Positions 2,548 to 6,499 of a stretch of 50,785 bases of DNA are shown piece by piece (the stretch's first letter is position 1; every line of letters begins with the position of its first letter). The stretch covers positions 1-50,785 of the forward strand of contig VFJJ01000064.1 in NCBI GenBank assembly GCA_009886115.1, given 5' to 3'. Under the pieces are notes generated by a model. It did no database searches, had not been told where the DNA came from, and was given only the letters and a program-made list of their open reading frames with translations. Source of the stretch: Actinomycetota bacterium. Lineage in GTDB: Bacteria > Actinomycetota > Acidimicrobiia > IMCC26256 > VFJJ01. A program made the position numbers and the translations under genes.

Positions 2548-3312
2548 TCATGGTTGGGGACCGACGCCGATGAACACCGAACGCTGCGACGAGTCAACAC
2601 CGACAAGAGCGCAGATATCCGTCGGGTTGAGCTGCGGGTTCTCCTGCACCTGCCAGCCGTCGAGCTCAAGCTCTGCGATCAGCTCCCGAGCCAAGGCCAC
2701 AGCTTCTGACTGAGCGATACACGAGCTACCAGCAGCTTGGACGAGACGGTCCTGAAGCTCGATCACCGCTTGTGCTTCGGGTGAAAGCTCGAGCACGGCC
2801 GGGTCGAGCCCGAGGGTCTCGCAGACCTCGACCGAATCGCCAGGGAACACCTCGACCGCGCTCGACACACCGACGCACGCGACCAGCGGTGGTGGCGCCT
2901 CGACGTCGATCGTGTCGAAACGGCCCTCGACCCATACCGTCGCGCACCGTCCGATCGGGTCGGGACCCGGCTCGATGACGACGATCTCGCTGTCGAGACG
3001 TGCCTCAGCTCGACAGGCCACCCCGCTCTCGGGCCGGGACGATTCCCGACCCGCGACCAGCGCGACCGCCACACCCGCGGACGAGACGAGCAGCACACCG
3101 ACCCCGACCAGAATCACCCGTCGATGACGGGCCTTCCATGCCCGTCGACGCACCGAACGGCCGTCGGGATCGGTCGCGGTTATCCGGGCGATCAACTCGT
3201 CCAGGTCATAGGAACGCGGCGGAGGCCAATCCCCGCTGGCGAGCGGGTCGGCTCGACGGATCGCGTCGATGATGTCCCAGCCTTCAGGCCGGTCCGGTGA
3301 CTTGTGGCTCAT
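2548..3312 (-). CDS. single-pass membrane protein, probable anti-sigma factor
   Basis: 254 residues. The ATG at 3312 overlaps the stop of the upstream sigma-factor gene in an ATGA junction, which decides the start over a longer frame to 3381. The N-terminal 65 residues are hydrophilic and basic near the membrane (cytoplasmic side expected), residues 66-88 form one membrane segment, and 89-254 would lie outside. The outer part has six cysteines (100, 123, 146, 164, 198, 234), consistent with a disulphide-bonded sensor domain. I do not recognise a named anti-sigma domain. The role is inferred from translational coupling to an ECF-like sigma factor and from the topology. It could instead be a structural or lipid-linked surface protein. 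Confidence 0.6.
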   Translation of the reverse strand: MSHKSPDRPEGWDIIDAIRRADPLASGDWPPPRSYDLDELIARITATDPDGRSVRRRAWKARHRRVILVGVGVLLVSSAGVAVALVAGRESSRPESGVACRAEARLDSEIVVIEPGPDPIGRCATVWVEGRFDTIDVEAPPPLVACVGVSSAVEVFPGDSVEVCETLGLDPAVLELSPEAQAVIELQDRLVQAAGSSCIAQSEAVALARELIAELELDGWQVQENPQLNPTDICALVGVDSSQRSVFIGVGPQP

Positions 3313-3836
3313 CGCTCGGCCACCTCGCGGACACGCCGATACGCACGCGAAACTCGTTTGCGAGCCGCGACCGGGCTGCAACCGAGTATCACCGCCAGTT
3401 CCTCGGCCGAGAACCCGTCCCGCACCACCGCGAGCAATACCTGACGGTCACCCTCGTCCAGGCGGGCCAACGTCCGATCGACCAGCTCACGTTCGTCAAC
3501 CTCGTCAAACCCGTCCCGATCATGCATCGAGGCGGTATTCGCGTTCCGGTCGCGGATGAACCGGGCTTCGTGTGTCATGCGACGGCTCGTGGCTCGGAGC
3601 TGATTGCCATGCGTCTGGTACGCGACCCGACACAACCAGGCATGCCGGAACGACTCCGGCACCTCGTTGAGCACATGATCGAACCGGCGCCAAGCGACCA
3701 GCAGAACACCCTGAACAATGTCGTCGATCTCCGAGCCGTAGCACCTGCGCGCCACGAACCCGCGTAGACCTGGCTCGTGCTTCCTCACGAACCCGGTGTA
3801 CTGGCAGAAACGCTCGGCTGGATCGACAGAACTCAT
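3309..3836 (-). CDS. ECF-like RNA polymerase sigma factor (sigma-70 family)
   Basis: 175 residues from ATG 3836, preceded by GAGGGAAAC. Region 2 is visible around residues 23-85, with 'SEIDDIVQGVLLVAWRRFD' matching the core-binding/-10 helix pattern. Region 4 spans about 120-172, with 'LDEGDRQVLLAVVRDGFSAE' then a helix-turn-helix 'ELAVILGCSPVAARKRVSRA'. Regions 1 and 3 are absent, as in group 4 (ECF) sigma factors. It overlaps the next gene by four bases. Its Shine-Dalgarno sequence is the 3' arm of a long hairpin (see 3837-3874), so translation is likely controlled. Target promoters are unknown; self-regulation is plausible. Confidence 0.85.
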   Translation of the reverse strand: MSSVDPAERFCQYTGFVRKHEPGLRGFVARRCYGSEIDDIVQGVLLVAWRRFDHVLNEVPESFRHAWLCRVAYQTHGNQLRATSRRMTHEARFIRDRNANTASMHDRDGFDEVDERELVDRTLARLDEGDRQVLLAVVRDGFSAEELAVILGCSPVAARKRVSRAYRRVREVAER

Positions 3837-3874
3837 GTTTCCCTCAGCTGGAATATGTCCGGCTGAGCGGAAAC
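3837..3874 (-). promoter_or_regulatory. mRNA hairpin burying the sigma-factor Shine-Dalgarno sequence
   Basis: In the minus-strand transcript GTTTCCGCTCAGC (3874-3862) pairs with GCTGAGGGAAAC (3848-3837): 12 base pairs with one bulged G. Three more pairs form inside after one mismatch, leaving a 5-base loop. The stem ends directly at the ATG at 3836 and contains the whole GAGGG. Pairing is read directly; the regulatory role (thermometer, riboswitch-like or protein-bound element) is inference. The same dyad could instead be a DNA operator. Confidence 0.55.
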
Positions 3875-4014
3875 TGTGACACCCCACCTCGAGAAACCAC
3901 CAGACGTGGAGGTGGCGTGGCCGCTGAGGGAAACGGTGCGGCCACGCCACCAGAGAACCACCCATCAGGGCAGGACTCCACCCCATACATGTCCGACACA
4001 CGCCAAACTGTGAC
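3871..4014. repeat. 10-bp direct repeat AAACTGTGAC in the sigma-factor leader
   Basis: AAACTGTGAC occurs at 3871-3880 and again at 4005-4014 (GTCACAGTTT on the sigma-gene strand). A pair of identical sites upstream of a sigma gene could be binding sites for a regulator or part of repeated promoters. No classical ECF -35 GGAAC plus -10 pair is seen on the right strand. Confidence 0.35.
3911..3951 (-). promoter_or_regulatory. 14-bp perfect inverted repeat whose loop is a second anti-Shine-Dalgarno copy
   Basis: The arms at 3911-3924 and 3938-3951 are perfect over 14 bp around a 13-base loop. In the sigma-factor transcript the loop holds GTTTCCCTCA, which with the next two bases is perfectly complementary (12 bases) to the sigma Shine-Dalgarno region GCTGAGGGAAAC. 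There is no U-tract, so a terminator is unlikely. Confidence 0.5.
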
Positions 4015-4169
4015 CGACCCGGGCCCGAACAACCGCTCAGCCTGAACCGCAGTGGGACCTCGGAGCCACAATCGGGCTCCCCCTTCAGGGCAACCACATG
4101 CCGGCAAGCGACGGTTCCTCGTCACAGACGGACCGACTCGAGCAGCCGCCGTCGACCTCGCGGCCGTCG

Positions 4170-4680
4170 ACCAAGCGGCCGACGACAAGCCGTTCGCCAG
4201 CGTCGGCGCTGTACATCGGCGCGATCACGCTCACCGCGCTGGCGCCGGCCGACATCCGGGCGCGCGACGCCATGTCGCTGCACATGTCGAAGCGGTGGGG
4301 CGACGAACCGCTGGCGTCCCGCCACGGTGCGCACGACGCACCGGATGCTGCGCCGGACATTGCACGACTCGGTCCAGTGGGAAGTTCGCCGGCCGCAAAC
4401 CCGTGCCAGGCGGTGATCGAGCCGGGGCGGAACCAGGTGGAGATCCCGGGCTGGGACGCCGAGCAGACGCGGGCGTTCCTGGCACGTCGAACGTGGTCGG
4501 CTCGCTGCGACGGGGCCGCTGTTGGTGGCCACCGGCATGCGAAGGCCACCACACTGCGGCACCCCTCGCACTCGGTGGTGGTGCCGGGGGTTGCATCCGA
4601 ACGTGGTGCGCCTCTGCCATTCCTCGATCGCGATCACGCTCGACGCGGAAAGCCACCTGCTCCCGTCGATGCAAAGGTGA
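4170..4680 (+). pseudogene. decayed tyrosine recombinase (integrase) remnant
   Basis: Pieces of an actinobacterial integrase appear in order but in different frames. About 4190-4250 gives 'IGAITLTALAPADIRA' (core-binding domain). About 4310-4400 gives 'PATVRTTHRMLRRTLHDSV'. About 4437-4490 gives 'EIPGWDAEQTRAFLARR'. About 4519-4547 gives 'LLVATGMRR'. About 4594-4677 gives 'HPNVVRLCHSSIAITLD', then a degraded C-terminus and stop at 4680. Several frameshifts are needed. The segment between 'TGMRR' and 'HPNVV', which should hold most of the catalytic domain, is deleted, and the nucleophile Tyr position ('TYSH' in relatives) reads Ala-Glu-Ser-His. It is clearly non-functional. It is a relic of an earlier integration next to the intact integrase. 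Confidence 0.7.
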
Positions 4681-4818
4681 CCCCGCAGCAGACCTGGGAC
4701 AAGGCCGTAGACGGGAGTCGATCCATTGCACCAGGCCGTCGAGCGTGATCGTGTTGGGCGGCGAGCCGTACCGGCTGTGAGACCAAGGCCGCCTCGGCGA
4801 CGAGGAAGTCGCCGGCAG

Positions 4819-4948: not shown

Positions 4949-6148
4949 TCAAGGTGGAGGAGCGTCCTTCTGCGACAATCCGGGACTCATGAGGGCGGGT
5001 TTGCCGAGGAGGCGGTTCCAGGCTTCGATGGCGTGGGGGAGTGATGGGCGGACGGGGTGGCGGTAGCCCTGGGTGGTGCGGGTGTCGACGTGGCCGGCGA
5101 GGTCGGCGACCTTGACAAGGTCGTCGAGCTGGTCGGCGACGAGGGAGACGAATGAGTGTCGGAGCTCGTAGGTGGTCCAGTCGGTTCCGAGGCCGGACCT
5201 CTCGCAGAGCGCCTTGAACGCATCGCGAAGGTTCCCGAGCAGGTAGGGCGTTCCGTTGCGGGTGCAGAACACGAAGCCCTCGGTGCTGAAGTAGCCGATC
5301 ATCTGCATCTCGTCACGGTGACGATGGAGGGCCGCGACCAAGAGCGGGTGGAGGCCGATGGTGCGGCGTCCCCTTTCGGTCTTGGGTGCGGCCTGGCCGA
5401 CGTACCTGTGAGCAAGCTCCTGGGCGCGTTCGGCGACGGTGATCGAGGGTTCGGCCGAGTCGATGTCGACGAACGGCCATCGGAGGCCGGCGAGCTCGCC
5501 CGGTCGCAGTCCGCACATGAGGCCGGTGATCCACATCGCCGGAGTGGACGATGCCGGGATGCCCCGGGTGAGCAGGGCCTGGGCTTGCACAATGGTCAGC
5601 GACTTGCGTGGCTTCGCGGGACGGGCGACTGGTAGCAGCACCGTCGTGGCAGGGTTCGTCTTGATCACGCGTTGGCGGACGGCGTGCTGGCAGGCATGGT
5701 TCGTGTACAGCCAGACGCGATCGACCGTGCTCGTTGACAGGCCTGACGCGGCCATCTTCTGGAAGGGCTGCTCGAGGCGCGCCGTGGAGGTTCGGTCGAC
5801 CCGGAGGCCGCCGATCGTCGCACGGACATGAACGTCGAGGAGTGTCCGGGCGTTGGCGATCGTGCTCGGGGACTTCTCGCGGGCGTGACGTGTACGACTC
5901 GTCGACGAGACGCTCGGACAGCCGGCGTCGAGCCACCCGTCGATCACCTGCTCGAAGGTCGCGAGGCGTTCACGGCGGGGCTCAACTGTGGCGCCGGTGG
6001 CTCGCAGCGTAACGAGATCGTCGAGATCCTTCTGGGCGTCACGCTTGGAGACCCGCTCGACCTTGCGGCGCGAGCCGTCAGGGAACCGGACCCAGGCCAT
6101 CCACCGCTGCGCGCCCTCGTTCCACCGCACCGTCGGCCGTTGCGCCAT
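4949..6148 (-). CDS. site-specific tyrosine recombinase (phage-type integrase)
   Basis: 399 residues from ATG 6148, preceded by AAGGGGG 6 bases upstream. Longer frames run into the tRNA and are not credible. The N-terminal Arm-type DNA-binding part starts 'MAQRPTVRWNEGAQRW', with a core-binding domain around 62-165. The catalytic domain spans about 180-385 with R215 ('CGLRPGELAGLRW'), K256, the box 'TYELRHSF' (R330, H331; the usual first His is Tyr327, a common variant), H353 ('AGH') and nucleophile Y362 ('GYRH'). All key residues are present, so it is probably active. It lies 137 bases from the 3' end of tRNA-Ala on the same strand, the standard arrangement for an integrase that uses a tRNA 3' end as attachment site. 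The element it mobilises would extend toward and past position 1. Confidence 0.9.
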   Translation of the reverse strand: MAQRPTVRWNEGAQRWMAWVRFPDGSRRKVERVSKRDAQKDLDDLVTLRATGATVEPRRERLATFEQVIDGWLDAGCPSVSSTSRTRHAREKSPSTIANARTLLDVHVRATIGGLRVDRTSTARLEQPFQKMAASGLSTSTVDRVWLYTNHACQHAVRQRVIKTNPATTVLLPVARPAKPRKSLTIVQAQALLTRGIPASSTPAMWITGLMCGLRPGELAGLRWPFVDIDSAEPSITVAERAQELAHRYVGQAAPKTERGRRTIGLHPLLVAALHRHRDEMQMIGYFSTEGFVFCTRNGTPYLLGNLRDAFKALCERSGLGTDWTTYELRHSFVSLVADQLDDLVKVADLAGHVDTRTTQGYRHPVRPSLPHAIEAWNRLLGKPALMSPGLSQKDAPPP

Positions 6149-6204
6149 GCCAGGCCCCCTTCTGAGCTGGGTCGACAGAGCGCCGACGGAGCCAGCGGGC
6201 GAAA

Positions 6205-6228
6205 GGCTACGTCCAAACCGGCTACGTC
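6205..6228. repeat. 9-bp direct repeat GGCTACGTC, period 15
   Basis: Copies at 6205-6213 and 6220-6228 lie between the integrase start and the tRNA, where arm-type integrase sites or an excisionase site would be expected. The function is inferred only from location. Confidence 0.4.
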
Positions 6229-6245
6229 GCGGGTCGGGACGCGGG

Positions 6246-6280
6246 AAACCCCAGGCCAGATGAGCTCTGGCCTGGGGTTT
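6246..6280. terminator. strong bidirectional terminator hairpin after tRNA-Ala
   Basis: A 15-bp perfect stem (6246-6260 with 6266-6280) surrounds a 5-base loop and is flanked by short T/A runs. It starts 6 bases after the tRNA 3' end on the minus strand, so it most likely ends the tRNA transcript and insulates the integrase from it. Confidence 0.8.
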
Positions 6281-6285
6281 TGGTG

Positions 6286-6358
6286 TGGAGCTGAGGAGCT
6301 TCGAACTCCCTACCTCTTGCATGCCATGCAAGCGCTCTACCCACTGAGCTACAGCCCC
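6286..6358 (-). tRNA. tRNA-Ala (GGC anticodon)
   Basis: The 73-base cloverleaf reads GGGGCTG acceptor (one G-U), D stem GCTC/GAGC, anticodon stem CTTGC/GCAAG with loop ATGGCAT (anticodon GGC), a 5-base variable loop, T stem GGGAG/CTCCT with loop TTCGAAG, and discriminator A. CCA is not encoded. It reads alanine codon GCC. It is the likely attachment site of the island carried by the adjacent integrase. Confidence 0.95.
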
Positions 6359-6371
6359 ATGCGCGGGCAGG

Positions 6372-6377
6372 ACTCTA
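6372..6377 (-). promoter_or_regulatory. probable -10 box of the tRNA-Ala promoter
   Basis: On the minus strand TGCTAGAGT is an extended -10 (TGn-TAGAGT), with a start site expected about 7 bases before the tRNA 5' end. The -35 (around TCGATC) is weak. Confidence 0.4.
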
Positions 6378-6499
6378 GCAAACCGCTGCACCAGATCGAG
6401 ATCGACCTCGGAGCCCCAGGCATCGGGATTCGGCGGGGTCGCCCTGACGGCGGCTCAATCGAACGCTGGGGCTCGAGGGGCGGCCGGTAGATTGGTCAC

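Follow-up and report, generated by a model that had tools for sequence, protein, structure and literature searches.

In phage T4 the late promoter of gene e overlies the 5′ strand of a hairpin at the ribosome binding site; the long early RNAs are locked and the RNAs made from the late promoter are translated (PMC3014915). Promoter-dependent locks of the same kind act on the T4 genes soc, 49 and I-TevI (PMC3014915). Operons in which an ECF sigma factor is encoded with its anti-sigma factor and regulates its own expression have been reviewed (PMC8103513), and ECF41 promoters are described by TGTCACA-n16-CGTC (PMC3426412).

Here we describe the upstream region of an ECF sigma gene in the window, by which we mean the whole stretch of 50,785 nucleotides that was analyzed. 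The locus resembles the autoregulated ECF operons in its short two-domain sigma factor, the adjoining putative anti-sigma gene and a motif upstream that looks like the promoter of the operon's own product. It differs from them in that there are two copies of the motif and the spacer of one is complementary to the Shine-Dalgarno (SD) sequence. The reading that we favor, at a probability of roughly one half, is an autoregulated ECF sigma operon in which the spacer of promoter P1 doubles as a lock on read-through messages. The features concerned are listed in Table 1.

Table 1. Features of the sigma operon and its upstream region (window coordinates).
Feature	Position	Strand	Remarks
SD arm GCTGAGGGAAAC	3848-3837	−	Abuts ATG at 3836-3834
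Near anti-SD arm GTTTCCGCTCAGC	3874-3862	−	P1 spacer; pairs with SD arm
14-bp perfect hairpin	3911-3951	−	Arms 3951-3938 and 3924-3911; loop ACCGTTTCCCTCA; second anti-SD copy inside
P1, predicted ECF promoter TGTCACA-N13-CGGACAT	3855-3881	−	Top matrix score; direct repeat with P2
P2, promoter-like copy GGTCACA-N13-CGGACAT	3989-4015	−	Second matrix rank; 134 bp upstream of P1
ECF sigma factor gene	3309-3836	−	175 aa; ATG at 3836-3834; Sigma70_r4_2 (Pfam) 8e-11; sigma70-ECF (NCBIfam) 2e-16
Putative membrane anti-sigma gene	2548-3318	−	Overlaps end of sigma gene; one hydrophobic stretch in sequence
Gene of secreted protein resembling peptidase inhibitor family I36	2000-2551	−	Last operon gene

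The sigma operon and the pairings at its start site

A first, sequence-only reading of the region had taken the gene for an ECF-like sigma gene, and the profile matches bear this out. Regions 2 and 4 of the protein were both matched and the score with the ECF superfamily model exceeded the cut-off; the product is an ECF sigma protein whose only regions are sigma2 and sigma4. Its start codon is consistent with the N-termini of homologs. The product of the second gene, which matched no Pfam family, may act as anti-sigma factor, and in other members of the class homologs of this gene adjoin ECF genes. The Inhibitor_I36 match of the third product (E 7e-4) is slightly short of the gathering cut-off, and homologs of its gene adjoin the same ECF/anti-sigma pairs elsewhere. 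Other genomes of the class harbor related sets of I36-like, ECF and anti-sigma-like genes in varying order. Two operons of genome G112 with gene order or neighbors in common were set aside as comparators; their sigma genes are very divergent and no recognizable similar promoter lies upstream.

On the far side of the promoter region a tyrosine recombinase gene (4949-6391, minus strand) is situated directly downstream of a tRNA-Ala gene (6285-6358) on the same strand. This layout could be that of an integrated element, which might include the sigma operon; a direct repeat of the tRNA-Ala end was not found in the window. Between the sigma operon and the intact recombinase gene, the plus strand at 4100-4750 holds broken reading frames with LCHSSIAITLDAESHLLPSMQ, which by eye resemble the C-terminal part of phage-type tyrosine integrases and are probably a decayed recombinase gene. 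Inside this stretch ARAGORN called a tRNA-Thr (4121-4208, minus strand), which is without Rfam support and probably false.

All elements of the pairing that the sequence-only reading had described at the start codon are present on the minus strand. The near anti-SD arm and the SD arm form a 12-bp stem interrupted by one bulged G, with 3 additional pairs on the inner side. The upstream hairpin was also found as described: its loop and first stem bases comprise a second anti-SD copy, GTTTCCCTCAGC (12 nt, 3934-3923), perfectly complementary to the SD arm. The leader from 3960 to 3820 folds with −68.6 kcal/mol (z = −5.4), a value that none of 200 shuffled sequences equaled. When the 112-nt leader was shuffled 20,000 times with dinucleotides preserved, 3 of the sequences had a 12-nt stretch exactly complementary to the SD arm. 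The pattern GTTTCCN{0,1}CTCAGC has three copies in the whole 5.4-Mb genome, all of them here within 100 bp. Because of this confinement and the z-score, the pairings at the start site are real and not due to chance.

Even with up to 3 mismatches allowed, the genome has no second copy of the 14-bp hairpin, which is thus not a repeat element. Nor is the hairpin a terminator, as it lacks a T-run, and no intrinsic terminator was found between 3300 and 4900. No Rfam leader or riboswitch family was matched; at gathering scores the window gives only a tRNA. The loop copy and the P1 spacer are alike including their flanks (CACCGTTTCC-CTCAGC-GG versus CACAGTTTCCGCTCAGCCGG), and the loop copy may be what is left of a promoter region that was duplicated. 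It is not needed for the lock, and in silico the local start-site hairpin always beats it as partner of the SD.

Predicted promoters and the upstream regions of homologous genes

The comparison covered the upstream regions of 96 sigma genes that are homologous to this one and come almost exclusively from Actinomycetota. The hexamer CGGACA is the most enriched in these regions: 56 of the 96 genes have it, whereas a control stretch taken farther upstream gave 3 and the opposite strand 17. When the genes were aligned on CGGACA, TGTnA(A/C) appeared about 20 nt upstream and the hexamer extended to CCGGACATA. A conserved ECF-type motif thus lies upstream of the sigma gene and its homologs, and it often ends some 10 nt ahead of the start codon. 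Measured from its first base to the start codon, the median distance is 26.5 nt in the 56 homologs with an assignable start, with about 30% at 13-18 nt; in the window it is 25 nt.

A weight matrix was built from the sites of 54 homologous sigma genes, with the window excluded, and both strands of the window were scored (ca. 100,000 positions). P1 (C of CGGACA at 3861) ranked first with a score of 20.2 and P2 (3995) second with 10.4, followed by 7.7. The matrix sites were picked by CGGACA, so the −10 weighs heavily in these scores; the −35 part raised the score of P1 by 2.6 bits and left that of P2 unchanged. Independent of this choice of sites are the identical spacing of P1 and P2 and the GTCACAGTTT that they have in common. 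The two form a direct repeat, GTCACAGTTT-N9-CGGACAT at 3880-3855 and 4014-3989, in which the ends are identical (0 mismatches over 17 common bases) and the middles differ. P1 is therefore well supported as a predicted ECF-type promoter. In the reading that we favor, both P1 and P2 would be recognized by this sigma factor. A sigma-70-like promoter was not found between 3300 and 4900. The near anti-SD arm coincides exactly with the 13-nt spacer of P1.

Elsewhere in the genome the P1/P2 repeat gave no match at up to 2 mismatches, and it is absent from viral contigs. A looser promoter pattern matched two further genomic sites. One is apparently within a coding region. The other, TGTCACAG...CCGGACAT (C102:16261-16287, corresponding to 1501-1527 of L145 in G000:C102), is intergenic. 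About 215 bp downstream of it lies a small ORF (L145, 1736-2158) with a signal-peptide-like start and no Pfam family; this small secreted-looking protein is a candidate second target, either of this sigma factor or of a paralog.

Among the homologs tandem promoter-like sites are rare, found at 3 of the 96 genes, and pairing of spacer to ribosome binding site is not enriched across the set (mean energy p = 0.31). Stems of at least 10 bp number 3, versus 0.45 expected, a count that includes the window's own. In L096 and L088, inverted repeats of 10-11 bp flank CGGACA upstream of the sigma homolog, with sequences unlike those in the window; L088 is a Kribbella homolog, and its relative L100 is without such a stem, as judged from the sequences. 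Ahead of the sigma gene of L175, the homolog with the best score, neither a promoter of this kind nor a comparable hairpin is present. Scans of genome contigs, viral contigs, the order, the phylum and plasmids for close homologs gave only distant relatives or nothing; the collection scan started from five closer homologs, and an alignment of 17 homologs was too diverse. In these leaders the promoter motif is kept without a general excess of pairing, an outcome to be read with the roughly 30-41% protein identity of the nearest homologs, which is too distant for a covariation test. Several gene sets in which the I36 gene comes first have the same −10 upstream of that gene. Upstream of I36-like genes in L160 (near 2430-2472) and L174 (near 1082-1124) there are divergent CCGGACACA promoter-like pairs about 40 bp apart.

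Transcript start, SD accessibility and competing explanations

Since about 30% of the homologs have the motif's first base at 13-18 nt from the start codon, transcription must begin within about 16 nt of that base. For P1 this predicts a start around 3848 (3851-3845), where the SD arm has its 5′ end. The predicted position lies downstream of 3874. With a start near 3848 the P1 mRNA would be devoid of both the near anti-SD arm and the loop copy, so the main mRNA probably starts inside the hairpin and thereby escapes sequestration. RNA from P2 or from read-through would carry all arms. In silico the probability that the SD is unpaired at 37°C was 0.001 in the P2 RNA versus 0.30 in the P1 RNA, where the SD is partly paired with the coding region. 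Opening the 12-nt SD arm takes about 15 kcal/mol in the P2 RNA versus 4.5 kcal/mol in the P1 mRNA.

In the mechanism that we propose, the region would serve as promoter and leader of an operon for the sigma factor, the putative anti-sigma factor and the I36-like secreted protein. RNA polymerase carrying the sigma factor would recognize P1, start transcription near 3848 and give an mRNA in which the leader is about 12 nt long and the SD usable. RNA begun further up, at P2 or by read-through, would carry the spacer and fold it onto the SD; as the P1 spacer is complementary to the ribosome binding site, any longer RNA would have its SD locked. Sigma output would then be poor from the long RNA and good from the P1 mRNA, the lock being expected to act at translation. 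Such a lock would suit a self-activating sigma factor: if it is real, a promoter spacer also blocks translation of read-through RNA, and the sigma factor is kept silent unless its own promoter fires.

The main competitor of this mechanism is that the promoter alone matters. P1, and perhaps P2, would then be an ECF promoter of the usual autoregulatory kind, and local duplication and inversion would have left behind the self-complementary copies, which would have no role in RNA. The enrichment of CGGACA in homologs, the top matrix ranks of P1 and P2, the lack of general pairing in homologs and a P1 mRNA without the arms all agree with this, and the similarity of loop copy and P1 spacer together with their flanks is what a duplication would give. 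It leaves aside, however, that the free spacer is complementary over all of its 13 nt to the ribosome binding site of the same gene and that the three copies are unique in the genome, and we regard it as a tentative, rather unlikely alternative. Considerably less probable is a DNA operator, with a dedicated regulator that binds the inverted GTTTCC(N)CTCAGC pair at the P1 −10 and the upstream copy and represses by blocking RNA polymerase or by looping. The inverted pair does flank the −10 exactly and a third copy lies upstream, but the genome has no further copy and hence no regulon, and no adjoining regulator gene was identified. Moreover, the direct copies differ by one inserted base, which is unusual for a protein site, and the third copy is set in a perfect hairpin that an operator would not need.

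The RNA driven by P2 might act in trans, its loop GTTTCCCTCA pairing with the 5′-terminal SD of the P1 mRNA and limiting sigma synthesis by negative feedback. Energetically this is conceivable: the loop is open in the P2 RNA (0.14 kcal/mol exposes 10 nt), and loop-SD pairing over 10 bp yields −15.0 kcal/mol against the ca. 4.5 needed to open the SD arm of the P1 mRNA. P2 also resembles a promoter of the same sigma factor. There is no intrinsic terminator to release a short RNA, however, and the rarity of tandem sites among the homologs also argues against it; we consider action in trans very improbable. A combined scheme, in which one sigma factor uses two promoters of its own operon with opposite outcomes, the P1 mRNA being free and the P2 RNA locked in cis while its looped anti-SD could also silence the P1 mRNA in trans, would amount to an RNA feedback on an ECF sigma factor through the choice of promoter; it seems to us marginally less improbable than trans action by itself and a shade less credible than the operator.

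Least probable of all is the RNA switch on a long leader, sensing temperature, a ligand or a protein, that the sequence-only reading had proposed. The strong leader fold and two possible anti-SD partners speak for it, and RNA with a start upstream of 3874 would indeed always have its SD sequestered, so a switch could operate only in RNA from P2 or further up. The arm is also the P1 spacer, though, and the main start is predicted downstream of it; homologous leaders lack the arrangement, and the loop copy is always outcompeted by the local hairpin in silico. A thermometer is made unlikely by excessive stability: when the P2 RNA was folded in silico from 10 to 70°C the SD stayed closed, with an unpaired probability of 0.02 at 70°C. 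Because the SD would be locked even at that temperature, we reject the thermometer reading. For sensing of a ligand or protein no supporting evidence was found, including any Rfam match. Overall the switch is partly supported at best, and the dominant feature is the predicted autoregulatory ECF promoter, to which a lock on translation that depends on the promoter is a plausible addition. The case shows that a promoter flanked by an inverted repeat can pass for an RNA switch.

Comparison with described systems

RNA thermometers have in common with the long RNAs of this locus that the SD is paired in a leader hairpin. The hairpin here differs in being too stable at biological temperatures, as judged in silico, and it is probably absent from the main transcript.

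With ECF41 the locus shares the −35 heptamer, TGTCACA being identical in P1. The −10 differs, since here CGGACAT follows the heptamer at N13, and the 175-aa protein has no large C-terminal extension. Membership in ECF41 was therefore rejected: the −35 matches but the −10 and the protein length do not. The comparison of homologs provides a testable promoter motif for ECF sigma factors from a broad actinobacterial group, TGTnAC-N13/14-CCGGACATA.

A literature search on the motif, or on the same lock on a sigma gene, gave nothing closer than T4 gene e. In both cases the 5′ strand of the SD-sequestering hairpin is overlaid by a promoter, here a predicted one; long RNAs would be shut by the hairpin, and RNAs from the near promoter are without that strand. 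Unlike the phage genes, this locus belongs to a bacterial chromosome, its promoter is predicted to be of the ECF type and to depend on the gene's own product, the anti-SD has an extra copy in a loop, and the lock is a proposed one.
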